From Bacilliculturomica massiliensis (lineage in GTDB: Bacteria > Bacillota > Clostridia > Peptostreptococcales > Anaerovoracaceae): DNA of 64,000 nucleotides. The notes under the pieces are model-generated. The model worked only from the letters and a program-made list of their open reading frames with translations. It did no database searches and was not told where the DNA came from. A program made the position numbers and the translations under genes. Positions 6,423 through 43,334 of this stretch are shown here, piece after piece (the stretch's first letter is position 1; each line of letters opens with the position of its first letter). The stretch covers positions 1,831,262 through 1,895,261 of the forward strand of contig NZ_LR027603.1 in NCBI RefSeq assembly GCF_900605495.1, in the 5' to 3' direction.

Positions 6423-6460
6423 ACTCCCACCTCCTTTCAGCTTTATTCGCTCCACCCATT

Positions 6461-6489
6461 ATTATATGGTAACAGTCTTCCGCGCACAA
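6461..6489 (-). promoter_or_regulatory. Sigma-A promoter of the TerB-ATPase-helicase operon
   Basis: TTGTGC (6484-6489) and a perfect TATAAT (6461-6466) are separated by 17 bp, 38 bp upstream of the TerB start. A good match in spacing and in the -10 hexamer. Confidence 0.6.
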
Positions 6490-6510
6490 GGCGGAATAAC
6501 CGGTGAAGAC

Positions 6511-6550
6511 ACAAAAAGAGCCGCAGCTCCTGTTGAAGCGGCTGCGGCTC
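6511..6550 (-). terminator. Rho-independent terminator of the AraC-GNAT gene
   Basis: Ten-base arms GAGCCGCAGC (6518-6527) and GCTGCGGCTC (6541-6550) form a hairpin. On the minus strand it is followed by TTTTTGT. It lies 26 bp after the AraC-family stop codon and just upstream of the TerB operon promoter, insulating the two units. Confidence 0.8.
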
Positions 6551-6576
6551 CGTATTCTTCCCAAAATGACCGAAAC

Positions 6577-7461: not shown

Positions 7462-7595
7462 AGCGCCTCCTTTCCCTGAATGTTTATTATACACCATCCA
7501 GCTGCAGGAGTTTTCATATTTCTTGCTTTTTCTCCCCCGGCGCTCTGGGCTTTGCTGTGCGCGCTCTGCATCGGTCCACGAAGTTTACATGTCCG

Positions 7596-8792: not shown

Positions 8793-8820
8793 CTTGTGCA
8801 CCTGATTCCTTTCCCGCATT

Positions 8821-9492
8821 CTATCTCAAATGGATCGTGACCGTAGCGTTCATCCCGAAGGCCATAGGCAGCCCCTCGCCGTCCAGAAGCGTCACCTTCA
8901 CAGGGATCAGCTGGGTGACCTTTGTATAAGTCCCGCTGGTGGAAAAGCTGGAAGCGCCCGAAAAATAAGTCTGCGTGGCCGGATCGATCTCCGTCACCTG
9001 GCCTCTGAAACTCTTTCCCGGATAAGCGTCCAGTTTCACATCCACTGTCTGCCCTTCATGGATCTTGGCGATCTCCGTCTCTTCCACATTGACGCCGATG
9101 TACATGTCGTCCGTATCCGCCACCACAGCCAGCGCGGACCCCTGGGAGACCATCTGATTGACGGCGGCGTCGTTTTTCACCACGGTTCCCGTCACCGGAG
9201 ACGTAATGTAGGGAAGGGTCTCCTGCCGCCCTAAGATCTGATCTTTCTCCACCAGGTCCCCTGTCTCCACATCCCATTCCAGCAGTTTCCCGCCGGTGAC
9301 GGGCATTACGCTGTACATCTTCGCCGTGACCCTGGCATTGTCGGTGGTAAAATAGTTGGCCCGAAGGCTGAAGTAATAATATCCCCCGCAGCATGCCGCG
9401 ATCACGATGACCAGCGCCGCCAGACAGAGGATCTGCCTGATCTTTTTCTTATTTGGATCCCGCTTCTTCGATCCATCCTTTCTTTCGTCCAT
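8821..9492 (-). CDS. HlyD/EmrA-like membrane-fusion protein
   Basis: A 223-residue adaptor with a basic N-terminus, one transmembrane helix (about residues 22-42, ILCLAALVIVIAACCGGYYY), a lipoyl-like half (GKLLEWDVETGDLVEKDQIL), VTGTVVKNDAAVNQMVSQG and a beta-barrel. It lacks the long coiled-coil hairpin of EmrA, so it is short for the family. The start at 9492 has GGAGGAGG, which lies inside the end of the ABC gene; that gene stops at 9494. It belongs to the TetR-controlled exporter operon. Having two different adaptors beside one ABC pair is less usual. Confidence 0.82.
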   Translation of the reverse strand: MDERKDGSKKRDPNKKKIRQILCLAALVIVIAACCGGYYYFSLRANYFTTDNARVTAKMYSVMPVTGGKLLEWDVETGDLVEKDQILGRQETLPYITSPVTGTVVKNDAAVNQMVSQGSALAVVADTDDMYIGVNVEETEIAKIHEGQTVDVKLDAYPGKSFRGQVTEIDPATQTYFSGASSFSTSGTYTKVTQLIPVKVTLLDGEGLPMAFGMNATVTIHLR

Positions 9493-9493
9493 C

Positions 9494-27040: not shown

Positions 27041-27229
27041 TTCCGTAAAACGACTGCAGTCTGTTATTGTTGAGAAAATGCCCCATTGGTCGAAGTATCG
27101 CACTTTCTTTTGGGGCGACTACATTAGGAGCAGCAGTTCAAAAAATGTGTAACGTACCCATCATAAAACGAAAAACCGGGAAGGAGCTGCCTGTCCTTCC
27201 CGAAAAAATGAATAAAGCTTACACAGACT

Positions 27230-27949
27230 CTATTCTTCCACTTGTTCCGGCTGTAATAGCCCCAGTGCTTTCTGTTCCTCGATCCAACGTTTTTCCTGTA
27301 TTCTAAACCAATCATCCTGCCGCATCCAATAATTACATACAATGATTTTTTGTCTCACTACTACTGCAAATTCTTCTACACTTGTCTGTCGATCACCAAA
27401 GTCTTCATAATTGCGTACAGTGTAGTATCCCCCCGATGGCTCCTCTGGAAATGTATCTGCAAGTTTATGTTCGATCCTCTGCTCGCCAGCCCATGATACA
27501 TTATACATATATCCATAGTAATCACTTCCGAAATATGGATCTTCTGTCATGAGGACCGGCTTAAATTCTGGATATTCTCTTAAAATAATCTGCATGACCA
27601 GATCCACAGCCTGCTCCTTGCTGATCATCTGCCCATCTGATTGAAAAGAATAGATTCCGTCTTCTATCTCCTCCCCCAGTTCAACATAACTGCTCGGTGA
27701 AGACAGTTCCTCTTCACTGAATGATTCTAATACATCATCGATCGGAAGCTCTTTTTCTGTTGCCAATGGAATCTCCGATCCTGATTCAGTCGTTTCTACC
27801 GGAGGGAGCGTAGGATCTTTCTTTTCCTCGATCTCCTGGATCGCTGAACAGCCCGCCAGCAAAAGGCAAACTGTTACGATGTAGATCTGTTCTATAACAT
27901 ATCCCAGTTCCTTCTTTCGCTGATGCTCACATACGGAAAGCTCTGCCAT
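27230..27949 (-). CDS. Hypothetical lipoprotein
   Basis: A 239-residue protein of unknown family. Near residue 33 the lipobox LLLAGCS suggests lipid attachment outside the membrane. An acidic, Pro/Ser/Glu-rich linker (residues 40-95) follows, then a globular part rich in Tyr and Trp with DGQMISKEQAVDLVMQIILR. The ATG at 27949 is four bases after the stop of the PH-domain gene, so the two form an operon; the binding site is weak. It is the last gene of the Rhs-associated island. By position it could be an accessory or immunity protein, but nothing in the sequence proves this. Confidence 0.6.
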   Translation of the reverse strand: MAELSVCEHQRKKELGYVIEQIYIVTVCLLLAGCSAIQEIEEKKDPTLPPVETTESGSEIPLATEKELPIDDVLESFSEEELSSPSSYVELGEEIEDGIYSFQSDGQMISKEQAVDLVMQIILREYPEFKPVLMTEDPYFGSDYYGYMYNVSWAGEQRIEHKLADTFPEEPSGGYYTVRNYEDFGDRQTSVEEFAVVVRQKIIVCNYWMRQDDWFRIQEKRWIEEQKALGLLQPEQVEE

Positions 27950-27953
27950 CGGA

Positions 27954-28517
27954 TCAGCCTGCCCTTCCTGTCCGCTCCGCCGTCCTTTTTATGATCAGAT
28001 CATACACCTGATCAACCTTTCTGATATTTTCAAAGGCCCTCGGTCTCCATGCATTTCCCAGGTAATACTCCGCCTGAAAAGCGTAGGTCATCAGATAGGT
28101 CATAAACGGTCCGAAAAAAATCGTTCCCACGCCGTCTTTGCGCTCCCTCTTTTTCAGCTGAATGATATTGGTGTAGAAAATGGAATCGATCCCTCTGGCG
28201 TTTATGAAGATCAGTCTCCGATCTGTGGCAAGATAGCGGCAGGAACGAAGCCGTCTCTCATTGATAAAAAAACGTCCCACCAGCAGATACAGACCGATCA
28301 GTAAAAATCCAACGCCCGCCACACATAAGATCATGACGCCCATTTTGAAAGCCAGAATTCCCCACACCACCATGAATACACACCAATAGATACTGAGTGG
28401 TATCAGCAGGATATCCGCACGCTCCAAATAAATTTTCGGTTCCGGCTCTCCCTCCCATAGCACCTGCTCACCCCGCTGCAGAATATTCTCCGTGTATATT
28501 TTATTCTCGCTGTCCAC
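27954..28517 (-). CDS. Bacterial PH-domain-like membrane protein
   Basis: A 187-residue protein with two adjacent membrane helices (about residues 38-80), a cytosolic beta-rich part with the bPH-type stretch CRYLATDRRLIFINARG and ITNII-like LKKRERK segments. The best start is GTG at 28517, directly after GGAAGGGAGGGAAC. An ATG 18 codons earlier would overlap this site. The sequence upstream is an Rhs fragment. Function is unknown; small PH-like membrane proteins occur near toxin loci and in stress responses. Operon with the downstream lipoprotein gene. Confidence 0.6.
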   Translation of the reverse strand: MDSENKIYTENILQRGEQVLWEGEPEPKIYLERADILLIPLSIYWCVFMVVWGILAFKMGVMILCVAGVGFLLIGLYLLVGRFFINERRLRSCRYLATDRRLIFINARGIDSIFYTNIIQLKKRERKDGVGTIFFGPFMTYLMTYAFQAEYYLGNAWRPRAFENIRKVDQVYDLIIKRTAERTGRAG

Positions 28518-28653
28518 GTTCCTTCCCTCCCTTCCTACGCCCCATGAGATGGCATATTCTATTTTCTTCAAATATGCGTAATAACCGCCTTACTCTCATA
28601 TGTCCGATCCGCTTCCAGCCCTGCCCGCCAGCTTTGTTACAGCGGCTGTTCGC

Positions 28654-28905
28654 CTGTTTACCATCATTGTAATTGATATTCGTCGCCAGATCAAGATAAT
28701 TGTAAGAATATTCCGTCATATTGCCGTCTACGTCGGTGGTCTGGACCAGGTTTCCGTTGCCGTCGTAAACGTTCAGCGTTTCCTTCCCGACTGCATCGAG
28801 GACCTTTGTCACCTGTCCGTTGCCGTCATGCTGGTATATGGTAATCTGGTACTCGTCAACATCGTGCAGGCCGTCAATCCGGTGCAGGGCGCTCTTCACC
28901 AGCTT
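28654..28905 (-). pseudogene. Orphan Rhs/YD-repeat fragment 1
   Basis: Eighty-four codons (KLVKSALHRIDG ... NINYNDGKQ) match an internal part of the large Rhs protein (KLVKSTLHRVDG ... NINYNDGKQ, around 35480-35740) with scattered substitutions. The frame around it is unrelated and there is no start or toxin tip. It is a leftover of Rhs recombination or duplication, not an expressed gene. Confidence 0.8.
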
Positions 28906-29010
28906 GCTGGCAAACTTTTTATTTCTATAATGGTTGACCAATGAGAACTTGGAATGAGTCCATAGTTTTGACTGAAAGTATTTCATAACAACCTCTATTC
29001 ACTGTTAGCG

Positions 29011-29073
29011 CCGGTTCAGGGAGCTGTACTGGTGGTCCGAATAGTGACTGCCGTTGTGTCCCGTCTCGTAGAT
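29011..29073 (-). pseudogene. Short Rhs remnant
   Basis: About 63 bases read IYETGHNGSHYSDHQYSSLN on the minus strand, matching IYETGNNGSHYVDYQYNSLN of the large Rhs protein. It is the smallest of three orphan fragments and ends in a stop after the match. Confidence 0.7.
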
Positions 29074-29186
29074 TTACCCAATCGGCATACGCATTTGCTG
29101 TGGCTAATGATAATTTTTTTGTCTTTGACATACTGCACAAGTTGTTAGACCATGTATTTGCTCTCAACAGTGTTGAGAATTCCGGT

Positions 29187-30215
29187 TTATCGTTCGCATA
29201 CTTGAATCTGCTTATCGCCATCTGTTTCCAAGGCATGATGATAATATAAACAGTTTCCAATCACACATAAGTCATCCGTCTGTATATCTAAAAGCTTTTG
29301 CTGCTCAGCGGTTTCCATATTAACGCTATAAGTCCCATCCTGAGCTGAGAAGTATAAGAATTGTGTATCTGCAGCGCATTGATCCAAGAGGAATTCATCT
29401 TTGAAAATGGGCTCCCTGTTTTTATCTATCAATATTTCCGGTTTTTTATTGCATGATAACTTGTAAACCACGCTTTCATCTTCGCATAGCAGATCATTAT
29501 TAATGAGAAGCACATCATATATCTCATCTGCTGGAATACCTTCTAATAAATATTCCGTATGAGTTTCAGTCACTGGATCAAAGGCATACAGCATGCTGTC
29601 CTTTTTCAGTTTATAACACATTCTGTTATCCGGCGCTTTTGCAAATGCATAATCAGCAGCAATTAACTGTAACTCATCATTCTTAACACAATATAAATCA
29701 TCTATACTATCTTCATATAATCCTGGTTCCCAAAAGGCAATAAATAGGTTAGAGGCTGTCCAATAAAATCCTTGTACGCATTTATTTACTTGTCGACACA
29801 ATTGATAAATATGTTGATCCTCCTCTTGTATTTCATTGGTTTGTAAATTTACAGAAACATAATCAACCTCCCAATACTCCGTTCCTTCTATTGTTTCACT
29901 GATTTTCTCAATATATAATATGTCATTTTGTACAGTAAGCCTCATTAGTACCTGCTCACTGCTATAAAGAATTTCCTTATTTTCAGTTCCTCCTGAGTAT
30001 ATTCTCACCACAAAATATTTACCGTTCTTCCTTTCAATACCCAGACATGAATCTTGATATGAAATGATTTTTCTATTTTGAAACTGCACATTTCTGTCTT
30101 CTGCTATTTCGTTGTCTGTTCTTCCCATCTGTATCTCACTTTTATTTTTACAAGACGAGAAGCAAAATAACATACAAATCACTAGTATGATGCATCCAAA
30201 ATTCTTAATCCGCAT
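29187..30215 (-). CDS. Hypothetical lipoprotein, possible orphan immunity protein
   Basis: A 342-residue protein. The signal peptide ends in the lipobox CFSSCK near residue 21, so it is probably membrane-anchored outside. The rest has many short beta-strand-like repeats (DLYCVKNDELQLI, MLYAFDPVTETHTEYLL, VYKLSCNKKPEIL), suggesting a propeller. The ATG at 30215 follows AAAGGAGTGGTGATC. It lies immediately downstream of a truncated Rhs core fragment, the usual place of an immunity gene for a displaced Rhs tip. The gene is AT-rich compared with the metabolic operons. No family is recognised; the immunity role is inference. Confidence 0.6.
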   Translation of the reverse strand: MRIKNFGCIILVICMLFCFSSCKNKSEIQMGRTDNEIAEDRNVQFQNRKIISYQDSCLGIERKNGKYFVVRIYSGGTENKEILYSSEQVLMRLTVQNDILYIEKISETIEGTEYWEVDYVSVNLQTNEIQEEDQHIYQLCRQVNKCVQGFYWTASNLFIAFWEPGLYEDSIDDLYCVKNDELQLIAADYAFAKAPDNRMCYKLKKDSMLYAFDPVTETHTEYLLEGIPADEIYDVLLINNDLLCEDESVVYKLSCNKKPEILIDKNREPIFKDEFLLDQCAADTQFLYFSAQDGTYSVNMETAEQQKLLDIQTDDLCVIGNCLYYHHALETDGDKQIQVCER

Positions 30216-30267
30216 GATCACCACTCCTTTTTCAGGACTATTAATGAATGGGACTATTACAGATTGA

Positions 30268-30987
30268 TTAAACAGCACGTAGAATTTTACATAAAAAGTC
30301 CGTGTGGTAATACAGCTTCACCGCACCGTTTTCCATGATCGCTCCCGCCGCCTGCTCGATGGGGCTCACCTTCACCGACAGCCGGTGTTCGTTCATCCCG
30401 TAGCCGTAACGGTAGGTCAGGCCTTCTTCTTCCGTCTCCAGAAGCACATTGGCCAACTCGCTGGTGTAATCCAGTACGAAGTCCTTCTTTACCACCTCAT
30501 GGTTTTTCAGCGTGGTGGGCACGGAGGGCTCCAGATCGTCGAAGCCGTGGTAGCCGTAAGCGTTCTTTCTCACGCTCCACTCGTTTCCAACCAGATTGCC
30601 CATGCCGTCTCTGGTGTAGAGGGAGATCTCCCCCGCTCCGTTGGTCCCCTGGGTCAGCTTGTTCGTCTCGTCGTAGACGTAGGTTCCAGTGGCTGTGACC
30701 TTTTTGTTCTTTCCGTACAGCTCCTTCACCTGGTTGCCGCGGCCGTCGTACTCATAGGTATAGACGTTCTTGTCCTTATCCACCTGCTTTCTCACCAGCT
30801 GATTCAGCACATTGTATTGGTAATCCACGTAGTGGCTGCCGTTGTCTCCCCTCTCGTAGATCAGGTTCCCGGCGGTGTCGTACTCGTAGGTCCTGGTCTT
30901 GTTGCCGTAGTTCTCGTGGGCCTGCACCACCCGGTTCAGCGCGTCATAGGTGTAGTGTAGACAGCGTTGCCCTCTAGCGTCGGACAT
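30268..30987 (-). pseudogene. Orphan Rhs core fragment 2
   Basis: The open frame of 239 codons matches the large Rhs protein almost residue for residue between HYTYDALNRVVQAH and VKLYYHTD (30298-30957 against about 34350-35005). It then ends after nine unrelated codons, before the conserved YVDPLGL core end. Upstream in another frame (about 31000-31035) is GNVVLATDAL, a second, differently placed Rhs piece. It has no ribosome binding site. It is a displaced cassette remnant whose toxin tip has been lost, followed by a lipoprotein gene. Confidence 0.85.
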
Positions 30988-31073
30988 ATTTTCAGTGCAT
31001 CAGTCGCCAGAACCACATTCCCGGCTGCAACAATTGCATTTTATCATTCTTCATGATTTGTATCAATTTACTA

Positions 31074-32085
31074 TTATTTTACATATGTATAATCATCTAA
31101 CAGCCATTCTTCCTCGATTCTAACAACAGCTATTTTATCTCCATTTTCATCTGGTGTACCATAGTAGAAAATTTGCCAGTAATCATTCCATCTCGAAATT
31201 TTTGCAGGAAATGCGATCTCTTCATCTTGTAAATCAATGCGTAATACATTGCGTATTGATTCATCTTCTATACTAATTATCACCAATAGCGGTTCTGTTT
31301 TTTGGCCCAACGATACTGCCGCTATTCCGATGGTATTTTCGTTTATAAAAAATACTGTTTCACTGTTTTTCTCCAGCTTCAAGCCGTTCAGGATATCAGT
31401 AACATTAATTTTTTTATCACCTTCCTCAAATTCATATCTAAACAAAACCACATATGAAATTCTATTGCTTGCGTTGATACCGCCTGCTATCATATAATTG
31501 TGGTATATACCACCGCTATAAAAAAGACAGTCATCAAGATATATTTTTATCGGCGTTTGTTAGTCGTCTCCCTCAGTACCCACTAGCAAGGTTGTTTTAC
31601 CACTATTTGATGTAAAGTAACAGTTAAAGTCCCCCAATTCCCAGACTGCAAACATAACTAATTAAATCGGAATCCGGATTTACTGAATTAAGAACAGCAT
31701 AATCGCACACTTCGCCTCCAGCCAATGCCGCGACTTTATATGGGACATTCACTCTTTGAATTTCTGATAGTTCTTCATCAATCCATATGAGAAAATTTTG
31801 GTCTTCCAGATCGTTCGCTCCTGCTAGAATCTGCTTTTCTGAGCTGCCATATAATATACAGTTGATCTGAAAATCAAATTCTTTCTTTTTTATCTCACCT
31901 GTATCAGTATTTATCCGTTTTACAACACTTTTCTGTGGCACCACAAATGTATCATAATCATCGCCTCTATATATTTTAGTATATTCCGGCGAGATTATTG
32001 TAAAGTCATGATCGCCGCTTGCCACACAGGCGCTGAAGAGAAAAAGTTGAAGAACCAGTACTACCAAAAACTTATAAATTTTCAT
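31074..32085 (-). pseudogene. Frameshifted lipoprotein gene
   Basis: A frame from 32085 (GAGGGGG site upstream) encodes a signal peptide with lipobox LFSACV and 153 codons, then stops at 31624. Reading shifts at a run of five C (31631-31635). The second frame continues with GDFNCYFTSNSGKTTLLVG, meets one in-frame TAA at 31560-31562 and runs on as an open 139-codon piece to 31074. The rebuilt product of about 335 residues is close in size to the neighbouring 342-residue lipoprotein. The two lesions argue for a real pseudogene, though the homopolymer shift could be a sequencing error. Confidence 0.65.
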
Positions 32086-32318
32086 TTCAAATTATCCCCC
32101 TCGCCTGTAATATAAAATATCAAGTCCGGCAAAATTATGGAATTACAAAAAATGTGTCGGGGGGGGATAATTATCCCTTCCCTCACATCGCCAAAAAAGA
32201 AAGCCGTCAGCGGATCTGTCCGCCGTATGTACTGGATTTAGTCTGTAAAAGTTGTCATTGACTCAATGTCTGACTTATTTGAAATGAACAGCTCATCGTA
32301 GCCTACGTTTTATTCTCC

Positions 32319-33011
32319 TCATCTCCCCGTAAACGGCATATATTCTTTTAATAATTTTTTATCACCCTTGATTTCCTCATATTTTTCTAAATCCCCAGAA
32401 GTCGTGATTCGATCGAACAAAAGATCTCTGCATATCCTGACAAAATCAAACTCCAGACGATCCTCTGACACATTCATAATTTTATTTATCTGATCTTCAT
32501 TCAAATTAACATCTTTAAATTTCAAAACATTTCCGTCTATGCTTATTTGATTGAATCCGGATATATCTTTTCCCATATAACGATCCGCTATTAGTCTAAG
32601 CTCAATCAATCTTCCAATTTCATTTTTATGAATAGTAAGCGCCGATAATATTTCTTCCTCATCTGCAAATAATGAGCTTTGCATTTCATTATCTACTATT
32701 TTGTAAAGTTCCATAATCCCACGCATATAGGTCTCGTCTGTTATGTGATTGGTTAATGTCACAATGTCCTTAATATTATCGTTTATATCCGGTTTTATAT
32801 AAGGTCTGACTCCATTTATGAGTTGTCCTTCAACAAATTCTGTTATCTCCATGTATTTACTATAAAAAGCCGCTTGATATTTGCAGCATTCTTCATACTC
32901 TTTCAATTCCCGATTTTCTTGAATTACATATATTGCAAGCACGCAAATGATACCTATTATTAATAAAAAGAACGACCACAGATGTTTTTTATTTTTTAGC
33001 TGATGCAACAT
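32319..33011 (-). CDS. Membrane-anchored protein, candidate immunity protein of the Rhs tip
   Basis: A 230-residue protein with one N-terminal membrane helix (about residues 12-32, LWSFFLLIIGIICVLAIYVI) and a helical, Glu/Asp/Ile-rich external domain. No family is recognised. The start at 33011 is preceded by GAAGGGAACTCTCTT. It is the first gene after the Rhs protein (about 100 bp, with a 13-base-pair hairpin between), is strongly AT-rich and has the orientation and spacing expected for the cognate immunity gene. If the toxin tip acts on the wall or membrane, an externally facing immunity protein would fit. Confidence 0.6.
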   Translation of the reverse strand: MLHQLKNKKHLWSFFLLIIGIICVLAIYVIQENRELKEYEECCKYQAAFYSKYMEITEFVEGQLINGVRPYIKPDINDNIKDIVTLTNHITDETYMRGIMELYKIVDNEMQSSLFADEEEILSALTIHKNEIGRLIELRLIADRYMGKDISGFNQISIDGNVLKFKDVNLNEDQINKIMNVSEDRLEFDFVRICRDLLFDRITTSGDLEKYEEIKGDKKLLKEYMPFTGR

Positions 33012-33038
33012 AAGAGAGTTCCCTTCTTTTTTCAAGTC

Positions 33039-33072
33039 GATTGGCAAGTGTGATTTTTTACACTTGCCAATC
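33039..33072. promoter_or_regulatory. Perfect hairpin between the Rhs gene and candidate immunity gene
   Basis: GATTGGCAAGTGT (33039-33051) and ACACTTGCCAATC (33060-33072) form a 13-base-pair stem with an 8-base loop. On the minus strand no T-run follows, so it is not a standard terminator. It may protect or process the mRNA, or attenuate read-through. Confidence 0.5.
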
Positions 33073-33108
33073 ATATTTCATGACAATCATTTTAAAAATA
33101 GAACTTTT

Positions 33109-36100
33109 TTACTTTAATACATCCTTTACCAGTTCATTTCTCATGGAAGGCAGAACATTTAAACGAACAACATTCAGCAGATAGTTCAGTTCTATTTTTT
33201 TAATCGGCTCAGTCTCGCTATAATTTACCACCGTCTGAATATAATCTGCTGCCTCCTTCATATAACTTCTTCTAATTGCTCTGTATGAATCAGTGTCCAA
33301 ATTATTAGGGTCAATTACAAAGGCCAGCGACGAATTAACAACTTTTTCAAATTGTTTCACAAGTTTCTGTTTCTTTTTGTTAGTTGCCCACTCTGCAAGA
33401 GAACTGTATGCCGGAACAGTTGAGGGATACCCTATCTCTCCTCCAATCAACACTTCAAACAAAGCCTGCCCACCAGACGCCGCCAGTATACCTAACTGTG
33501 TGTAGACATCTGCCGCTCCAGCGGAATTCATCATCTCGTTATAGTCATAGACCCATGTCTGGGCTATCTCTATTGCTGTTCCAAGCACTTTAAACAATGT
33601 CCCTGTGTCATCTGCGCACAGAAGCTTTTCATAGTAAGTTCCTAAGTAGGTATGGGAGACATATGGAGACCTTTTATCTGTTATTAAATAAGTCAACCCT
33701 AACCGCGCATAAGAGAACCCCTGAAGGATATCCTGCATTGTAAAGTTAGTCATATCATTTTCCAGATACAGTCCCAGCACTTTCCACGTTGTTTCACCCA
33801 CTATTCCTCTTACATTATCCTCTTTATTTCCCCCGGGAAGCACCTTATCCTTAAATCGATTAACCGCTTCCAAAGTGACATCATCAAACTTCCCAAAATT
33901 GACTTTTGTTATATCCAAATACTTCAATCCAATCAGCCGAATTTGCAGATCGACAACATCCTTCGTTTGTTGAGTTACTTTACCAAACTCATACCACTTG
34001 CTTCCATCACCTATTTTTAATTGATCGCCACGCTTTAATAGCCCCAGCGGATCCACATAATTCACCGGATTACTCCCCACATACGCATACCAGTTCTCTC
34101 CATCCCGGATCGGGTCGATCTGCGTGAACCGCCGGTTCCCCGCGTCGTACATCCGGTTCTTCGCATAGTACAGATCCAGTACAGAATCGTACTCATATCC
34201 CGTGTAGTTCTTCACCAGATCCAGCTCCCGGTGGCCGCACTTCAGTACTGCATTGTGCGTGATCTCTCCCCACTCGTTGTACATGGTCCAGCTGGTGACC
34301 TTCCCGGTCTTATCGCTGGTCAGGTAGTCGGTGGTCCCCAGATAGTCCGTGTGGTAGTACAGCTTCACCGCGCCGCTTTCCATGATGGCTCCCGCCGCCT
34401 GGTCGATGGGGCTCACCTTCACCGACAGCCGGTGTTCGTTCATCCCGTAGCCGTAGCGGTAGGTCAGGCCTTCTTCTTCCGTCTCCAGAAGAACATTTGC
34501 CAGCTCGCTGGTGTAATCCAGTACGAAGTCCTTCTTGACCACCTCATGGTTTTTCAGCGTGGTGGGCACGGAGGGTTCAATGTCGTCGAAGCCGTGGTAG
34601 CCGTAGGCATTCTTTCTCACGATCCACTCGTTTCCAACCAGATTCCCCATGCCGTCTCTGGTGTAGACAGAAATCTCTCCGGCTCCGTTGGTCCCCTGGG
34701 TCAGCTTGTTCGTCTCGTCGTAGACGTAGGTTCCAGTTGCTGTGACCTTCTTGTTCTTCCCGTACAGCTCCTTCACCTGATTGCCCCGGCCATCGTACTC
34801 ATAGGTATAGACGTTCTTGTCCTTATCCACCTGCTTTCTCACCAGCTGGTTCAGGGAGTTGTACTGGTAATCCACATAGTGGCTGCCGTTGTTCCCCGTC
34901 TCATAAATCAGATTCCCGGCGGTGTCGTACTCGTAGGTCCTGGTCTTGTTTCCGTAGTTCTCATGGGCCTGCACCACCCGGTTCAGCGCGTCATAGGTGT
35001 AGTGGACGTCCTCCTTCGCGCTTCCCGTTCCGTTTCCTCTCTTGTACTCGGAGAGCTTGTTCCCGTTGGCGTCATAGGTGTAGCTCTGCTTGATGGTCTT
35101 CAGATCCTTGTCGGAAGGATCCGTGTCGTTCACCGCCAGCAGCTTTCCAGCCGCGTCGTAGGTGTAGAATTCCTCCCAGTCGTTGGGATAGAGCATGGAG
35201 GTCAACCGGTCCGCCAGATCGTAGCGGTACTCCGTCACCTTATTCTCCGGCTCCGTCACCTTCGTCATCCGGCCCAGAAGGTCGTACTCGTAGTTCGTCG
35301 TGCTGCTGTCCGGATACACAATTTCGGTCTGGTTTCCTACAGCGTCGTACGTGTAGCTGGTGGTCTTCCCCTTCGCATCCATCGTCTTGGTGATCCGCTT
35401 CAGCAGGTCCACCTCGAAGGTCGTCGTGCCGTTCCAGTCCGTCATGGACACCAGTTCGCCCACCTTGTTGTAATGATAGCTCACCTGCTTGCCATCATTG
35501 TAATTGATATTCGTCGCCAGATCAAGGCTGTTGTACGAATATTCCGTCACATAGCCGTCAGCGTCTGTGGTCTGGATCAGGTTGCCGTTGCCGTCGTAGA
35601 CGTGCAGCGTTTCCTTCCCGGCTGCGTCGATCACCTTTGTGACCAGGCCGTTGCCGTCGTACTGGTAGATGGTGGTCTGGTACTCGTCCACCTTGTGGCG
35701 GCCGTCTACCCGGTGCAGCGTGCTCTTCACCAGTTTGCCGCCGGCGTTGTACTCCAGTACCGTCTCGTTTCCGTTGGCGTCGATGGTCTTGACCACATTT
35801 CCCAGTCCGTCGTAGACATACTTTGTCACATTGCCCTTGGCGTCCGTCACCGCCGTGATCTGCCCCTTCGCGTCGTAGGTGAAGGTCTGGGCCGACCCCG
35901 CCGGATCCGTCGTGCCCGTGATCCGGTTCAGCGCGTCGTAGGTGTAGACCGTGGTCTCTCCCTCGCCGTTGGTCTCGCTGAGGAGATTGCCGTTCTTATC
36001 GTAGATGTAGGTGATGACGGCTCCCTCCGCATTGGTCAGCTTCGAGATCAGCCCGGTGGGCGTGTAGTCAAAGGTGGTGGTTCCCTCCTTGGCGTCCACG

Positions 36101-39100
36101 ATCTTTGTCACCCGGTCCATAGCGTCGTAGGTCATGGAGGTGCTGTTTCCCAGGGCGTCGGTCACAAGGACCACATTGCCGTTTTCATCGTAGCCGTAGT
36201 GGGTGACTGCGCCTTCTTCATCTGTTACTTTCACCACCCGGCCGTCCTTGTCGTACTCCACAGAAGAAGCGTTTCCCTCCGCATTGATCCGCTTCACCGG
36301 CAGGTTCCGTCCGTCGTATTCATAATTCGTTACGTTGCCGTTTCCGTCGGTCAGCCGGATCAGATTCCCGTTGGCGTCGTACACATAGCTGACCACATTC
36401 CCTTCTGCATCCGTAGTGGAGGTCAGGCGGTCCAGAAGGTCGTAGCTGTAGGTCACGGCATTGCCGTCGCCGTCCACGATCTTCGTCACATTGCGCGCCG
36501 CGTCGTAGGACAGGGTCGTCGTGTGCCCTTCCGCATCCGTCAGGCTGGTCAGACGGTTCAGCGCGTCATACACATATGCTGTCACATAGCCCAGGGCGTC
36601 CGTCTCCTTCACGATGTTTCCGTTGGCGTCGTATTCCGTGGCCGTCACGCCGCCCATAGCGTCCGTGGTGGACAGGAGCTGACCGATTGCGTCATAGGCA
36701 AACCCAGTCACGCCGCCCATGGGATCGGTCATGGTGAGCAGATTTCCGTTCTTGTCGTAGGTGTAGCTCCAGCCGTCTCCGTTTTCATTGACCGTGGACA
36801 GCAGCAGCCCGTTGGCATCGTAAGTATAAGCGGTTGTGGTGCCGTCCGCATTCGTAATCTTTGTCACCCGGCCCAGAAGATCGTACTCGTAACTGGTCTC
36901 GTTTCCTCTGCAGTCGGCGTCTGTTGTGATCTGACCCACTTCGTCATAGCTGGCGGCGGTGGCGTTTCCTTCCGCGCTGATGGTCTTCACCAGGCGGCCG
37001 GCCGCATCGTACTCATAGCGGACCGTGTTTCCCTCCGGATCCTTCACCGCAGTCAGACGGTTCTCCGAATCGTAGGTGTAGCTCGTCACGTTTCCGTTTC
37101 GGTCTGTCTCCCGGATCACGTTTCCGTTTCCGTCGTAGCTGTACCGAACGGAATGGCCCAGCGCGTCCTTCACCTCCGCGATCCGGCCCGCGCCGTCGTA
37201 GCTGTATCTGGTCCCCGCTCCCCGCTCATTCTCCACGGTGCTGACCCGTCCCATGGAATCATAGGTCATGGAGCTGGTTCCGCTCAGCGGGTCTGTGGTG
37301 CGGACCAGCTGGTCATTTGCATCGTAGCCGTAGCTCCAGCTGTTTCCCCGGGCGTCGGTCATGCCCGTCATTCTTCCCTGAGAATCGTAGGAATAGCGGA
37401 CAGCGTGCCCCAGAGCGTTGGTCTCAGTCACCAGATTTCCCCGGATATCGTAGCCGTAGGTCGTCTCCGCTCCCATCCGGTCTGTTACCGAGACGGGCTG
37501 ATTCTGGTCGTTGTAAATCGTGTGCATGAGGTTCCCGGCGAAATCGCTTTCCGCTGTGGTGAAGCCGTTGCCGTTCACCTCATAGGTCTTGATCTGGCCC
37601 GCCGGGTCGGTTACCTTCACCAGCTTGCCCGCCGTGGTGTATTCGTAGGCGGTCACAGTACCGTCCGCCAGCGTCTCCGTCAGAACCCGTCCCGCGTCGT
37701 CGTAGGTCCAGGCCGTCACATTTCCCAGCGGATCTGTGGCCGTCAGGCAGTTCCCTGCCGTATCATAGGTATAGCTGGTGATCCCGCCCATTCCGTCTGT
37801 AACAGAGGTCAGATTATTGCTGCTGTCGTAGGTGAAGCTTCTGACCACTCCGTTGGCGTCGGTGCTCTCCGTCATCCGGCCTTTTTCATCATAGGTATAG
37901 CCGGCGGTTCCGCCCGCTCCGTCCATATACCGGGTCAGCAGATTCTGGTCGTTGTATTCAAACGTTTCCTGACTGCCGTCCGGGTGCCGGATCTCGGTCA
38001 GATTAGCCCGGTCGTCATAACGGTACTCCCTGCGGTTTCCGTTCTTGTCCGTTTCCGCTGTCCGCTGATGAAGCTCGTTGTATTCGTAGGTCCGCGTTCC
38101 GTAATTGTCCGTGTATTCCGTGATCCGCCCGTACTCGTCGTAGACGATGGAAACCGCGTACCCGTTTTCCCCCTCCACGCGGTTCGTCCGGTTTTCAGGA
38201 TCGTAGGTAAAGACAGAGGTTCCTCTTCCCTCCACATACTGTTCCGTCACACGGTTGTCCCCGTCATAGGTGTTCTGAATGTATACCGTGCCGTTGAAAT
38301 CCTTTATGGTCTCGATGCAGCCCTTTTCATTGTACGTATACCGCAGATCGTCTCCGTCCGGATTCACCGCGGAGACCAGATGCGCTCCGTCGTAGGTATA
38401 GGTGACGGTGCGGCCCGCACTGTCCGTCACGGCCGCGATGTGGCCCCCGCTCCATGTAAAGGAGAAGCTGCCGGAGTCATTGCTGACTGAGGCCAGCCGG
38501 TCTCCATTGTAAGTGTACGCATAGGACTCGCCGTCCACGTTGACAATGGAGACAAGATTCCCTTTCCCATTGAAGGTATAGACCGTTCCGTCCTTATGGC
38601 TCAGCACGTATCCGTCCCCGGTTTTCTCAAAGGTGAAAGAGGAACCTGCAGGCGGCGAGTAGGTATCATCCTGATTCAGGCTGAAATACAGGCCGTCCCC
38701 GTTGGGAAGGATCACTTTCGCATACAGGATTTCTTCCTGCACCTGGTAGAACAGGTTATTCGTCCACCCTTTTCCCAATCCATAGTCGTTTTCCGCATAC
38801 TTGGACGCGTAGTGGCGGCTGAATTCCAGATTCGTCCGCCCGTTCAGGGCGAAGTCTGTGTAATCCCACTCGAAGCTTCCGGTCAGCAGATCCACCGGAT
38901 CTTCCAGTTTGACGACCGCCAGGCCCGTATAATCGATGGGGGACAAGAAGTCCGTCTGGCAAGTCGTATTGAACGCGATTCCCAGAAAGCTGTTGTAGGC
39001 CCGGTTTCTCTCGTCCACCGGTTCAATGACCAGCACATAGACGTCGGTTTCGCTGATCGTATGCTTATTTCCGTCTTTATCTGTATATCTGCCGTCCCAC

Positions 39101-40269
39101 AGAAGCAGATTGTGGATGAATGCTTCCGAACCCGGCTCGGTCTCTTCCAGCACCTGCAGCATGGCTTCGTATTCAGCCTGCGTCATCGCCTCCGGTTCTT
39201 CGATGACCGGCTCCGTCGGTTCGATGGCTGGCTCAGTCGCACCCGGTGTCGCCCCCTCTTCGTCCGGCTCCGGCGGCAGACCCTCTTCTGTGCGTTCTGT
39301 AATGGCAGGTTCCGTCACGGTTTCCTCCTCAATGGCAGGCCCGGACGAGGCTTCTGGTTCTTCCGGCGTATTTTCATCAGAAGACAGCTCCGGCTCATTT
39401 CCGTCGACGCTGAGACTTCCAAGAAGCGAGACGAACCTCATACCCACCGTTTCTCCCTGCTCTGCGGCCGGTTCCTCCGGCTCTGACGGCGTCTCCGGTT
39501 CGGTCGCTTCGACTGATGGTTCCGCGTGAGTCTCTTCGGGTTCTCCGGCCGGCTCTCCCGGCACAGCGGCTTCCTCCTCCGGCTCCGTCGTCGGCGCGGC
39601 GCTCTCTTCCTCCGGCTCAGGCTCCGGAAGGAGGTTCCGCTGTCTCATCAGTGTGCGGACCTCCTCCATCGTCTTTCCGGTGTAGCCGATGAAGGTGGTG
39701 CTGCCGTTCATAGTCTGGAAGTCCTGTTCCTTTACCTTCCCGACCGTCTCCACCAGTTCGTCGCCGTTCAGCGGGTTTGATATCGGATGATCCGTATCCC
39801 AGCCCTGGATATTGTCCCGCACAGGCGCTGCGTACAAATATCCCAGACGTTCGCCCAGAAACGGCTCCGTTTCATCCGGATTTTTGCTGAACATCATGTC
39901 CATTGGATTGGGAATCATCTTATCCTCGACCGGATCAATGTACTGATCGGGGTTGATCCGGTACAGCGATATGGCCGCCTGCTGGGTATGGGACAAGCTG
40001 AATTCCAGCATCATCCTCCCGCCCACGCTGGGATTGACGATACGCTGGATCAGATTTTCATGGTTTTCATTATAGTATGAGATCGGCGTCCAGCTCCCGT
40101 CGGCGTTGAACGCGCGGAAATACTTGAAACGTCCTTCCTTGTCGATGTTCGGATTGTCTGATTCTCCGTCTCCCGCCGCAAACACGGTGACAGGAATCAT
40201 TGTTAAGATCATGGCAATGGTCAGAAGAACAGAAAGTAATCGTCTTCCTCTTTTTTTCAGATCATTCAT
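33109..40269 (-). CDS. Secreted Rhs/YD-repeat protein with C-terminal toxin-like tip
   Basis: A 2386-residue secreted polymorphic-toxin-type protein. Residues 1-31 are a signal peptide (LLSVLLTIAMILTMIPVTVFA). Residues 32-210 are unrecognised; about 213-375 are Glu/Pro/Thr-rich, probably spanning the wall. A DUF6531-like segment (DPVDLLTGSFEWDYTDF, near 456) is followed by dozens of YD repeats that build the Rhs shell. The core ends with RFTQIDPIRDGENWYAYVG and YVDPLGL near residue 2075. The last ~305 residues are the variable tip. Residues about 2105-2163 resemble a peptidoglycan-binding domain (LQIRLIGLKYLD, GIVGETTWKVLGLYL). The final 200 residues are unknown. GGAGGATTCTC precedes the start. 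An ECF-type promoter lies 170 bp upstream. Confidence 0.92.
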   Translation of the reverse strand: MNDLKKRGRRLLSVLLTIAMILTMIPVTVFAAGDGESDNPNIDKEGRFKYFRAFNADGSWTPISYYNENHENLIQRIVNPSVGGRMMLEFSLSHTQQAAISLYRINPDQYIDPVEDKMIPNPMDMMFSKNPDETEPFLGERLGYLYAAPVRDNIQGWDTDHPISNPLNGDELVETVGKVKEQDFQTMNGSTTFIGYTGKTMEEVRTLMRQRNLLPEPEPEEESAAPTTEPEEEAAVPGEPAGEPEETHAEPSVEATEPETPSEPEEPAAEQGETVGMRFVSLLGSLSVDGNEPELSSDENTPEEPEASSGPAIEEETVTEPAITERTEEGLPPEPDEEGATPGATEPAIEPTEPVIEEPEAMTQAEYEAMLQVLEETEPGSEAFIHNLLLWDGRYTDKDGNKHTISETDVYVLVIEPVDERNRAYNSFLGIAFNTTCQTDFLSPIDYTGLAVVKLEDPVDLLTGSFEWDYTDFALNGRTNLEFSRHYASKYAENDYGLGKGWTNNLFYQVQEEILYAKVILPNGDGLYFSLNQDDTYSPPAGSSFTFEKTGDGYVLSHKDGTVYTFNGKGNLVSIVNVDGESYAYTYNGDRLASVSNDSGSFSFTWSGGHIAAVTDSAGRTVTYTYDGAHLVSAVNPDGDDLRYTYNEKGCIETIKDFNGTVYIQNTYDGDNRVTEQYVEGRGTSVFTYDPENRTNRVEGENGYAVSIVYDEYGRITEYTDNYGTRTYEYNELHQRTAETDKNGNRREYRYDDRANLTEIRHPDGSQETFEYNDQNLLTRYMDGAGGTAGYTYDEKGRMTESTDANGVVRSFTYDSSNNLTSVTDGMGGITSYTYDTAGNCLTATDPLGNVTAWTYDDAGRVLTETLADGTVTAYEYTTAGKLVKVTDPAGQIKTYEVNGNGFTTAESDFAGNLMHTIYNDQNQPVSVTDRMGAETTYGYDIRGNLVTETNALGHAVRYSYDSQGRMTGMTDARGNSWSYGYDANDQLVRTTDPLSGTSSMTYDSMGRVSTVENERGAGTRYSYDGAGRIAEVKDALGHSVRYSYDGNGNVIRETDRNGNVTSYTYDSENRLTAVKDPEGNTVRYEYDAAGRLVKTISAEGNATAASYDEVGQITTDADCRGNETSYEYDLLGRVTKITNADGTTTAYTYDANGLLLSTVNENGDGWSYTYDKNGNLLTMTDPMGGVTGFAYDAIGQLLSTTDAMGGVTATEYDANGNIVKETDALGYVTAYVYDALNRLTSLTDAEGHTTTLSYDAARNVTKIVDGDGNAVTYSYDLLDRLTSTTDAEGNVVSYVYDANGNLIRLTDGNGNVTNYEYDGRNLPVKRINAEGNASSVEYDKDGRVVKVTDEEGAVTHYGYDENGNVVLVTDALGNSTSMTYDAMDRVTKIVDAKEGTTTFDYTPTGLISKLTNAEGAVITYIYDKNGNLLSETNGEGETTVYTYDALNRITGTTDPAGSAQTFTYDAKGQITAVTDAKGNVTKYVYDGLGNVVKTIDANGNETVLEYNAGGKLVKSTLHRVDGRHKVDEYQTTIYQYDGNGLVTKVIDAAGKETLHVYDGNGNLIQTTDADGYVTEYSYNSLDLATNINYNDGKQVSYHYNKVGELVSMTDWNGTTTFEVDLLKRITKTMDAKGKTTSYTYDAVGNQTEIVYPDSSTTNYEYDLLGRMTKVTEPENKVTEYRYDLADRLTSMLYPNDWEEFYTYDAAGKLLAVNDTDPSDKDLKTIKQSYTYDANGNKLSEYKRGNGTGSAKEDVHYTYDALNRVVQAHENYGNKTRTYEYDTAGNLIYETGNNGSHYVDYQYNSLNQLVRKQVDKDKNVYTYEYDGRGNQVKELYGKNKKVTATGTYVYDETNKLTQGTNGAGEISVYTRDGMGNLVGNEWIVRKNAYGYHGFDDIEPSVPTTLKNHEVVKKDFVLDYTSELANVLLETEEEGLTYRYGYGMNEHRLSVKVSPIDQAAGAIMESGAVKLYYHTDYLGTTDYLTSDKTGKVTSWTMYNEWGEITHNAVLKCGHRELDLVKNYTGYEYDSVLDLYYAKNRMYDAGNRRFTQIDPIRDGENWYAYVGSNPVNYVDPLGLLKRGDQLKIGDGSKWYEFGKVTQQTKDVVDLQIRLIGLKYLDITKVNFGKFDDVTLEAVNRFKDKVLPGGNKEDNVRGIVGETTWKVLGLYLENDMTNFTMQDILQGFSYARLGLTYLITDKRSPYVSHTYLGTYYEKLLCADDTGTLFKVLGTAIEIAQTWVYDYNEMMNSAGAADVYTQLGILAASGGQALFEVLIGGEIGYPSTVPAYSSLAEWATNKKKQKLVKQFEKVVNSSLAFVIDPNNLDTDSYRAIRRSYMKEAADYIQTVVNYSETEPIKKIELNYLLNVVRLNVLPSMRNELVKDVLK

Positions 40270-40539: not shown

Positions 40540-40575
40540 AAAAAGAAAAAGCCGCCGGTAAAAACTACCGGCGGC
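40540..40575 (-). terminator. Terminator of the small secreted protein gene
   Basis: Arms GCCGCCGGTA (40551-40560) and TACCGGCGGC (40566-40575) with a T-rich minus-strand tail, 20 bp after the stop at 40597. It ends that transcript before the Rhs promoter. Confidence 0.85.
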
Positions 40576-40596: not shown

Positions 40597-41040
40597 TTAA
40601 AAGGTTACATTTGGGCTGTCATATGCAGCAGTGTCGATCACAGTGCCATTTTTATAGGCTTCTATGCTTGCGGACATGTAATATTCCCCCCGTCTGCTGG
40701 GAGTATAGGTTTCACCAAACACAAAATCCCCCATTCCATCTGCATACAAAGTCTGACTCCATTTTTTCACCGAATTATCATTAACGTCCCGAATATGTAC
40801 GACTACCTTAACATAATCGATCGTTCCGTTCTTATACGGTGTGACGATTAGATACGCATGAAGCTTCCCCGATTCCAGATAATACTGCGGCGAAATACTC
40901 GCAATGGCAGTCCATCTGGGGCTGATTCCATCCCCTGATACACTCGCCGGACTATCGATCGGCCCCTCCATAGCCGAACACGTAAGTCCACTTGATAAAA
41001 GCATGATGAAACAAGTGAAGATTATAGCAATTTTTTTCAT
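40597..41040 (-). CDS. Small secreted protein of unknown function
   Basis: A 147-residue protein with a signal peptide (MKKIAIIFTCFIMLLSSG, cleavage near CSA-ME at residue 23). The mature part is beta-strand rich: TAIASISPQYYLESGKLHAY, VKVVVHIRDVNDN, GEYYMSASIEAYKNG. This looks like an immunoglobulin-like or cell-surface adhesive fold. The start follows AAAGGAGGGCAAACGG. It is monocistronic, with an ECF-type promoter identical in layout to that of the Rhs gene and its own terminator. Probably co-expressed with the Rhs protein; the function is not known. Confidence 0.75.
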   Translation of the reverse strand: MKKIAIIFTCFIMLLSSGLTCSAMEGPIDSPASVSGDGISPRWTAIASISPQYYLESGKLHAYLIVTPYKNGTIDYVKVVVHIRDVNDNSVKKWSQTLYADGMGDFVFGETYTPSRRGEYYMSASIEAYKNGTVIDTAAYDSPNVTF

Positions 41041-41068
41041 CCGTTTGCCCTCCTTTCGCTTCACTACT

Positions 41069-41102
41069 ATATATAACGTAAAACACAGGTTGAAATGGGA
41101 CA
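41069..41102 (-). promoter_or_regulatory. ECF-sigma-type promoter of the small secreted protein
   Basis: TGTCCC-ATTTCAA (TGTCCC at 41097-41102) and CGTTATATAT (41069-41078) with an 18-bp spacer, about 30 bp upstream of the start. It matches the Rhs promoter in both boxes and in spacing. Confidence 0.65.
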
Positions 41103-41113
41103 AAAACAAAAAA

Positions 41114-41866
41114 TTATTTTTGCATCAGATGAATATTTTCTGCTATTTTTTCCGCTTCTGATAAACTTCCATCTGTTTTTATGTAAAACGTGCTGTTCTC
41201 ATTCCTCCAGTATAACTGAAAACAACCTTCGAAAGCATACCAGGTTATGTCGTCTCCATCATGATCCAGTACGCCCGTCTCTGTAAACTCCATATCTACG
41301 AGCATTGGCATTTCTTTATCATTTACTTCTTTTTGATTGAAATATATCGTTTGTTTTCCATCAGAAAAAGCCAGTCTGTATTCATTTCCAACTTTTTTAG
41401 CAGAAATTAGTGCAGTTCCTTCCGGGAGCCATTCAGGATAATAATACCTCTTCCACTCATCAGGAAGCACTTGATCTGCATTCACATCATTAAAATTGAT
41501 GACTGCGTAATCTTCACCCTCTTCTTCAACAAAAAATCTGTAAATTCTTTCTCTGATCGCTTGAACTTCTGGTATTGTAATAAAAGAAACAACAGTCACC
41601 GCTGCAAGCAGCAGAATACTGATTTTCACGATTTTTATAATACGCCTTTTTCTCCGTCTCCTTTTGGATTCAAACAGCAGACTTTCTTTCGTTTTTTTCA
41701 GTCGTGAATTCAAACGATCCGGCAGCACCATATGCCGGGCTTCTTCCAGTTCATCAGCAGCTTGTTTTTCCAGGTTTTCATCAATAACAGCGGCAATATA
41801 CCGCAGATTGGCCTCTGCCTTCTCTTCTACAGCTTTTTTGTATCCTTCTTCGCGCTTGTCAACCAT
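41114..41866 (-). CDS. Probable anti-sigma factor (single membrane helix, DUF4367-like sensor domain)
   Basis: A 250-residue protein. Residues 1-70 are a charged cytosolic part, then a very basic stretch (ESKRRRRKRRIIK) and one membrane helix (about residues 70-92, IVKISILLLAAVTVVSFI). The outer domain (residues 95-250) has ITWYAFEGCFQLYWRNEN and LPEGTALISAKKVGNEY, resembling DUF4367 domains of sporulation-type or anti-sigma proteins. The ATG at 41866 follows the stop of the sigma gene by one base, so translation is coupled. It probably holds the ECF sigma factor inactive until an outside signal arrives. Confidence 0.7.
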   Translation of the reverse strand: MVDKREEGYKKAVEEKAEANLRYIAAVIDENLEKQAADELEEARHMVLPDRLNSRLKKTKESLLFESKRRRRKRRIIKIVKISILLLAAVTVVSFITIPEVQAIRERIYRFFVEEEGEDYAVINFNDVNADQVLPDEWKRYYYPEWLPEGTALISAKKVGNEYRLAFSDGKQTIYFNQKEVNDKEMPMLVDMEFTETGVLDHDGDDITWYAFEGCFQLYWRNENSTFYIKTDGSLSEAEKIAENIHLMQK

Positions 41867-41867
41867 C

Positions 41868-42407
41868 TTATACCCCGGCGTTCCCTTTCTTTTCAATGAC
41901 TTCCCTTAGATGCTTTTTGGCCCGATATAGACGTTTCCTGACTGTTTCTTTTTTTAACCCATAAATTTTTGCAATACCATCAACATCATATCCAATCTGA
42001 TACGTCATCCATAGGATATCCTGATCTGCTTGATCTAAAACTTCTAACCAAACATCAACGTGCGCTCCAATTTTCACTTCGCCAATGGCCTCGACAATAT
42101 CAAATTCTTCTGTAATATATCGTTCAAATTCATCAGGATCTACGTAGGTCACATTTGAATTTTGGTTTTGTTTACGCAAATAATCTATCGCTTTATTCCT
42201 TGAAACAGTCATTACAAATTTAATCATATCATTCTCGTCAATTTTCTGTAAAACATCCTGACAATTTAGCAGAGTCAAAAAAACATCATTCACGGTTTCT
42301 TCTATGAGACCCTCGTCATCCAGATATTTGCGAGTATTATTTACGACTAAGTTCCAGTAATTCTGCATCAGACCCTCGAACCAATCCTCAGAATTAAATT
42401 TTTTCAT
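41868..42407 (-). CDS. ECF-type RNA polymerase sigma factor
   Basis: A 179-residue sigma-70 family protein. Region 2 includes TRKYLDDEGLIEETVNDVFL and IKFVMTVSRNKAIDYLRKQN (about residues 20-85). Region 4 is ILWMTYQIGYDVDGIAKIYG with KKETVRKRLYRAKKHLREV (about 130-172). No region 3 or 1.1 is present, as in ECF sigmas. It lies 7 bp after an XRE gene and one base before the putative anti-sigma gene. Two promoters with TGTCCC and CGTTATATAT blocks downstream are its probable targets. I see no such promoter before its own operon, so autoregulation is not evident. Confidence 0.87.
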   Translation of the reverse strand: MKKFNSEDWFEGLMQNYWNLVVNNTRKYLDDEGLIEETVNDVFLTLLNCQDVLQKIDENDMIKFVMTVSRNKAIDYLRKQNQNSNVTYVDPDEFERYITEEFDIVEAIGEVKIGAHVDVWLEVLDQADQDILWMTYQIGYDVDGIAKIYGLKKETVRKRLYRAKKHLREVIEKKGNAGV

Positions 42408-43000: not shown

Positions 43001-43076
<76 letters not shown>

Positions 43077-43108
43077 ATATCAGATACATCGCAATGTATT
43101 TAGTTGAT

Positions 43109-43197
43109 TGGTGCCGGAAACCGGGGTCGAACCGGTACGATCGGTAAGGATCGCAGGATTTTAAGTCCTGTGCGTCTGCCAATTCCGCCATTCCGGC
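43109..43197 (-). tRNA. tRNA-Leu (TAA)
   Basis: An 89-base tRNA with a long variable arm, acceptor GCCGGAA/TTCCGGC and anticodon TAA in GACTTAAAATCC. The CCA end is encoded. Confidence 0.93.
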
Positions 43198-43259
43198 CTG
43201 GTCGGCTCCGAAGCGGGACCGCCCTTGCTGAACAGGCCCCGTATCCGGTTCCTCTAGTT

Positions 43260-43334
<75 letters not shown>

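Follow-up and report, generated by a model that had tools for sequence, protein, structure and literature searches.

A secreted Rhs gene of Bacilliculturomica massiliensis is followed by tip-less Rhs core pieces and lipoprotein genes, the probable leftovers of displaced toxin and immunity cassettes

Contig NZ_LR027603.1 of Bacilliculturomica massiliensis (GCF_900605495.1; genome of 4.5 Mb; contig C21 in the labelling used for the relatives) was analysed over a window of 64,000 nt, i.e. the whole stretch of DNA to which the coordinates below refer. The window contains a single complete Rhs open reading frame (ORF; 33109..40269), followed by displaced pieces of Rhs core and by lipoprotein genes, all on the minus strand. 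The Rhs protein (2386 aa) begins with what by eye resembles a signal peptide, followed by an acidic stretch rich in Pro and Glu. A Pfam scan placed DUF6531 at residues 457–513 and found 38 RHS_repeat stretches, and the Rhs-associated core (Rhs_assc_core) occupies residues 1997–2077 and ends in DPLG (TIGR03696, 58.4 bits against a cut-off of 32.5). With its RHS/YD repeats and Rhs-associated core, the gene probably encodes an Rhs polymorphic toxin of the secreted, WapA-like kind. All 36 RHS_repeat matches of the whole genome (E≤0.001) are confined to this locus.

The C-terminal tip, the likely toxin domain, starts at residue 2078 (33109..34038, minus strand). It is AT-rich, and its only domain match is a weak one to PG_binding_1 (E 2.7e-4; 21.5 bits, cut-off 23). 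Among 99 relatives the tip was present in one, the window's own genome; a search of a large protein database scored none of 2004 candidates, which is a weak negative, as the protein itself was likewise not returned. The next gene (32319..33011, minus strand; 230 aa, 32% GC) encodes a protein with one N-terminal membrane helix and is, by its position, a candidate immunity gene of the current tip. One relative of it, at 87%, lies on a 5.4-kb contig. A 15-pair hairpin was also seen at 33039–33072, between the end of the tip and this gene.

Downstream of the candidate immunity gene the order on the minus strand is lipA (31074..32085), core piece 1 (30297..30957), lipB (29187..30215), core piece 2 (29010..29073), core piece 3 (28650..28907), a membrane protein gene with two transmembrane segments (2-TM; 27954..28517) and lipC (27230..27949). 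lipA is broken by a frameshift and an in-frame stop, whereas lipB is intact (342 aa) and starts 81 bp past piece 1; lipC encodes 239 aa. A preliminary description of this DNA had listed one full Rhs gene with three Rhs fragments, a membrane protein, a broken lipoprotein and further lipoproteins on the same strand. All of these were found again, the proteins by the membrane helix, the lipobox starts of lipA, lipB (FSSC) and lipC, and the frameshift and stop.

The core pieces matched the resident gene far beyond chance. BLASTN scores of pieces 1, 2 and 3 were 994, 67.1 and 290 bits, whereas the best score in 60 triplet-shuffled copies of the region was 34.6 bits, and seven of seven other equal-sized stretches of the window gave no match at E≤1e-5. 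Piece 1 (661 bp) corresponds to 34344–35004 and differs at 44 of 661 sites (93.3% identity), piece 2 (64 bp) to 34845–34908 with 11 of 64 sites differing (82.8%), and piece 3 (258 bp) to 35481–35738 with 39 of 258 sites differing (84.9%), so that the matches are less than the "almost exact" ones first reported. Read along the minus strand, they derive from late, again late and then earlier core, an order that differs from that of the gene. Like orphan modules, they are homologous to the resident core and lie downstream of it on the same strand. Piece 1, however, ends 101 residues short of the DPLG junction and not, as had been stated, just before it, and none of the three continues into a tip. 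The pieces are therefore remnants and not intact orphan modules.

In piece 1, 35 of the 44 substitutions fall at third codon positions, with 33 silent and 8 replacing codon changes (dN/dS 0.067). As the differences are mostly silent, this piece was still functioning as a core while it diverged, probably in another lineage, and is no copy that decayed where it lies. Pieces 2 and 3, both short, are both more diverged (dN/dS 0.22 and 0.19), which would fit older remnants.

Base composition of the locus is a mosaic, in which AT-rich genes are interleaved with GC-rich core pieces. GC content is 57.2% in the core, 56.3% in piece 1, 57.8% in piece 2 and 50.8% in piece 3, compared with 40.0% in the tip, 32.3% in the candidate immunity gene, 35.8% in lipA and 34.7% in lipB (2-TM protein, 47.9%; lipC, 43.5%; window average, 53.5%). 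In composition lipA and lipB are thus like the tip and the tip's neighbour, and unlike the core.

Lipoproteins were called here and in the relatives by a simple lipobox pattern of our own and membrane segments by a hydropathy window, i.e. no trained predictor was used. lipB carries a lipobox and lies directly behind a displaced cassette, the two features taken to mark a lipoprotein immunity gene, and is predicted to be an orphan immunity gene; lipA is a predicted former one. Among 148 family genomes lipB was found in its own genome only, and a large database likewise returned only that genome; its absence from the other 147 family genomes is as expected of a cassette gene. lipC was found in its own genome with three weak matches among the 148. 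Conservation of the lipoproteins in genomes lacking Rhs, which would have spoken against the preliminary description, was thus not seen (lipA was outside this search).

lipA and lipB are mutually dissimilar, and no similarity was detected among the lipoproteins compared (E≤0.1). Pfam and NCBIfam scans revealed no sequence relation of the lipoproteins to known immunity families. It had been proposed to compare the lipoproteins with genes located behind Rhs tips; in a small local set the best lipB match was a lipoprotein of locus L051 (E 0.0005, 14.5 bits), followed by lipoproteins of locus L083 (E 0.0035 and weaker). As 14.5 bits are too little, this relationship was discounted, and no convincing relative was left among the fetched Rhs loci. 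The idea that lipB forms a beta-propeller was dropped, its basis being only a sub-threshold match to DUF5050 (18.4 bits, cut-off 27). Structure models computed without homologues were poor for both lipB (mean pLDDT 35.7) and the resident tip (36.8), and therefore no fold is claimed. Searches of solved structures with lipB and with one relative's protein returned nothing useful.

The 2-TM protein had been described as a PH-domain protein, for which there was no match in Pfam; the only match was to PuhB of NCBIfam (E 5e-6; 26.5 bits against a cut-off of 110). Eight other genomes of the 148 contain relatives (best 34% identity), and the best of them adjoins a sigma-factor-like gene, where no Rhs was seen in the 3.5 kb inspected. 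An immunity function of the 2-TM protein is doubtful in view of these relatives and the lack of a neighbouring Rhs gene in the best case. Both this protein and lipC, whose membership of the locus is likewise doubtful, may be mere flanking genes.

The Rhs core was searched for in relatives. Core matches were detected in 65 of 393 genomes of the order, the best outside the own genome being in the genus labelled g58 (genomes G057 and G400; 44–59% protein identity in the best segments). The Rhs-associated core was present in 43 of 247 family genomes. A core search of named genomes gave five loci (best segments 26–51%), which were unused for synteny, and viral contigs and plasmids gave no match. 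In g58, Rhs genes on related cores carry differing tips and differing next genes. The variability of the tip was seen across genera and not within a species, and a joint exchange of tip and next gene was not seen within one species or genus, for which the window's own genome was the only one available.

A survey of 57 fetched regions and six g58 regions yielded 76 core ends, placed by the coordinates of hidden Markov models; G000 itself and three places at contig edges (G352:C9, G265:C38 and G050:C24) lay outside it. A host ORF was assigned to 70 core ends, and for 58 of them another ORF followed on the same strand within 350 bp, while 12 were set aside (no next gene within 350 bp, or at an edge). 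Locus L047 was uncounted because its host ORF was lost to a longer ORF on the opposite strand, despite a 194-aa tip there. The next gene after the 58 tips encoded a lipoprotein in 5 cases, a protein with an N-terminal membrane segment in 21, one with an internal segment in 2 and a soluble protein in 30, compared with 9, 24, 10 and 69, respectively, for 112 background ORFs further downstream. The anchored share (lipoproteins and N-terminal segments) was 26/58 against 33/112 (p 0.03).

The 58 tips were scanned with Pfam (3 of the 70 tips were shorter than 60 aa, and 9 of 67, having no neighbour, were omitted), and the labels "wall enzyme" and "nuclease" were assigned from family names. Five tips matched wall enzymes, namely VanY (L059), CHAP (L070), M23 with PG_binding_1 (L096), Amidase_6 with NLPC_P60 (L040) and, below threshold, C39_2 (L061). 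All five had anchored neighbours, four being lipoproteins and one an N-terminally anchored protein. Nuclease-type tips were found above the cut-off for AHH (L046, L060), Tox-REase-7 (L054), LHH (L075) and Ntox35 (L090), the last of which we take to be a nuclease, and below it for PDDEXK_11 (L063), GIY-YIG (L067) and EndoU (L077); the neighbour was soluble in eight of eight. Tip class and neighbour anchor were associated (Fisher p 0.0008; 0.008 using only matches over the cut-off), and the strict table without Ntox35 gave 4/0 against 0/4 (p 0.014, by hand).

The fifth lipoprotein neighbour was found behind a DUF4474 tip in L083 (G333:C1). It begins a run of 11 look-alike lipoproteins at this locus (oriented 4037–10299), the first of which matches DUF5104 and the last of which is cut by the region end; the run may be regarded as a multi-copy array of candidate lipoprotein immunities. 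L043 (4552–5100) and L071 (6189–6737) also carry, two to a few genes past an Rhs tip, a gene for a Tpt1/KptA-like RNA 2'-phosphotransferase; the L071 copy matches PTS_2-RNA (E 5e-38), and the L043 copy was recognised by eye. In L041 (G400:C234) a displaced tip downstream shares its pre-tip region with the resident Rhs, and transposase-like ORFs lie between the two.

Of 46 loci with sufficient sequence, 18 contained core pieces downstream of the resident gene. Classic orphans, i.e. a core end with a tip and, where the contig continues, a next gene, occur in L043 (twice), L044, L048, L071, L076 and L080. Other pieces are tip-less, as in the window. In L036 (G057:C50) the core ends at YYHQDRLGTT and a lipoprotein starts 64 bp on, and in L094 (G057:C126) it ends at the junction with a lipoprotein start 95 bp on. 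In L071 (G446) one piece stops 287 bp before the junction, and a lipoprotein of 352 aa begins 84 bp beyond it; a second, very short piece (33 bp, E 7e-6) lies 135 bp ahead of a 221-aa lipoprotein. L043 (G046) has a piece ending 281 bp short of the junction, and the gene 146 bp on encodes 212 aa with a membrane segment at the N-terminus. Judged by eye, L036, L043, L071 and L094 each have an open stretch of about 23–35 codons that ends no more than about 50 bp from where the surface protein starts; these stretches could be the last part of lost tips, or could be due to chance.

With "followed by" defined as within 150 bp, and the window excluded, a lipoprotein was found behind four of six tip-less pieces compared with 5/58 tips (p 0.003); counting a 24-bp match in L073 that was left out, the figure is 4/7 (p 0.005). 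The 150-bp rule excludes tip-less or short pieces in L037, L039, L042, L044, L045, L050, L064, L070, L076, L078 and L079. The anatomy of piece 1 and lipB in the window matches that of L036, L094 and L071, in which a tip-less core leads to a lipoprotein. A common break point 94–102 residues before the junction (L043, L071, L036 and the window) was considered and dropped, since different motifs are interrupted and the break in L094 is at the junction itself.

From these results we consider it probable that the locus holds leftovers of earlier tip-plus-immunity cassettes, the toxin parts of which were lost while the lipoprotein behind the largest piece was kept as a surface immunity protein. Judged from what follows tips and tip-less pieces in the family, lipB and, less surely, lipA are likely to be immunity genes of displaced cassettes, whose lost tips probably acted outside the cell. 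The preliminary description had proposed such tip displacement with loss of toxin and retention of surface immunity, and the proposal fits piece 1 and lipB, an arrangement that recurs in relatives; for the 2-TM protein and lipC, which it had also covered, it is doubtful. In the proposed sequence of events, a donor core bearing a new tip and immunity gene would have recombined into the resident core by a single crossover, thereby moving the old core end, tip and immunity gene downstream. A later deletion, starting within the old core and reaching almost to the end of its tip, would have removed the toxin and spared the next gene. Such a crossover, with the old tip lost afterwards, would account for the order resident core, new tip, new immunity gene, old core piece, old immunity gene.

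Because the recognisable wall-enzyme tips of the family precede lipoproteins or membrane-anchored proteins, lipB (and lipA before its breakage) may have neutralised wall-acting tips. The current tip would likewise act outside the cell, given its weak match to a peptidoglycan-binding domain and its membrane-anchored candidate immunity protein. A fuller version, in which the displaced cassettes were wall-acting, the toxin was deleted from the late core to the tip end, and the lipoprotein was kept as a "shield" against toxin-bearing kin, is possible, if rather doubtful.

Several observations weigh against retained lipoprotein immunity. No cognate tip was found for lipA or lipB, and the 81-bp stretch between piece 1 and lipB contains no convincing tip tail. 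The genus search covered one genome, the window's own. Lipoproteins behind tips (5/58) are no more frequent than in the background (9/112), and most scanned tips had no Pfam match, so that the tie between tip class and neighbour rests on a minority. The 150-bp rule was fixed after the loci had been seen; when all anchored proteins are counted, the figures are 5/6 tip-less pieces and 26/58 tips (p 0.08), and the core end of L095, which lacks a host ORF, has a soluble protein 144 bp on. The background rate would also be expected if the lipoproteins were ordinary AT-rich accessory genes amid Rhs recombination debris, unrelated to immunity, as would their lack of sequence relation to known immunity families and the occurrence of the 2-TM protein's relatives away from Rhs. 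Against this account, the succession of core piece and lipoprotein recurs in L036, L094 and L071, and four of the five tips directly followed by a lipoprotein are wall enzymes; we regard it as unlikely.

The pieces could instead be what is left of a duplicated Rhs gene that decayed where it stood, with no incoming cassette, since all of them match a single gene to which they are arranged in tandem. This is quite improbable given the mostly silent differences in piece 1, which are unlike decay, the order of the pieces, which does not follow that of the gene, and the AT-rich genes between them. A further suggestion, that the lipoproteins are surface partners which anchor or display the Rhs protein, has a precedent in MAFA, a lipobox protein described as the likely anchor for MafB toxins in Zhang et al. 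2012 (PMC3482391). One would expect such a partner to be conserved along with the core, as is reported for MAFA, whereas these lipoproteins are mutually unlike and lack convincing relatives at the fetched Rhs loci, which leaves this explanation very little weight.

Displaced Rhs cassettes and orphan immunity genes are already known, and the present locus, a real finding, falls in its main lines under this known turnover of Rhs cassettes with orphan immunity. In Zhang et al. 2012 (PMC3482391), strings of immunity genes behind toxin genes are read as remnants of tip swaps, nearly all immunity proteins are described as cytoplasmic, with Imm65 as the sole lipoprotein immunity of that collection, secreted or transmembrane immunities are noted for L,D-peptidase toxins, and beta-propellers are stated as not found among immunity proteins. 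As in those strings, a new tip and candidate immunity gene stand here ahead of predicted old immunities, whereas here core pieces remain as markers and the retained genes encode lipoproteins. WapA-CT2 of Streptococcus suis (PMC12704120), also Gram-positive, shows an incomplete Rhs core displaced downstream, which is explained there by rearrangement, but its displaced piece retains toxin and immunity, unlike the tip-less pieces described here. Serratia rhs1 (PMC10539506) has a toxin-less immunity gene behind an Rhs gene, for which protection was shown in Serratia, and differs in its cytoplasmic NADase immunity, delivery by a type VI secretion system and Gram-negative host. TelC/TipC of Streptococcus intermedius (PMC5555719) resembles the present case in being Gram-positive, with a toxin that acts outside the cell on a wall precursor and an immunity protein with a signal sequence, and in its several immunity copies (tipC paralogues, PMC9484751), but uses LXG/Esx delivery and has no Rhs core pieces.

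A full-text literature search, judged by titles and opening lines of abstracts and with subscription journals mostly outside its coverage, returned no paper on lipoprotein immunities of Rhs in Clostridia. Although the numbers are small, the present results suggest that the new part is the lipoprotein class of the retained genes together with its tie to wall-enzyme tips. Should the tips of secreted Rhs proteins act on the wall and have surface lipoproteins as antidotes, the type of a tip could be predicted from the anchor of its neighbour and vice versa, and lipoproteins of unknown function beside Rhs core pieces would become testable defence genes. The tip-less pieces would be a readable record of past cassette swaps of one genome. 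Under the fuller, wall-acting version, wall-enzyme tips of secreted Rhs proteins in Gram-positives would as a general rule be countered by lipoprotein immunities, some of which could show folds that are new among immunity proteins.

Terminator-like hairpins were predicted past lipC (27176..27203, minus strand) and ahead of the Rhs gene (40551–40575). As the hairpin scan found 13 sites against 12.0 expected, which is chance level, a single long transcript is possible. A plus-strand open frame of 1419 aa (34231–38490) lies antisense to the Rhs repeats and is most likely a by-product of these GC-rich repeats and no gene. Upstream (5') of the Rhs gene, on the same strand, AT-rich genes at 40597–42407 encode a small secreted protein, an anti-sigma-factor-like membrane protein and an ECF-sigma-like protein, which may regulate the locus. 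Genes for tRNA-Met, tRNA-Leu and tRNA-Asn at 43001–43334 lie upstream of this AT-rich stretch and mark a possible island border.

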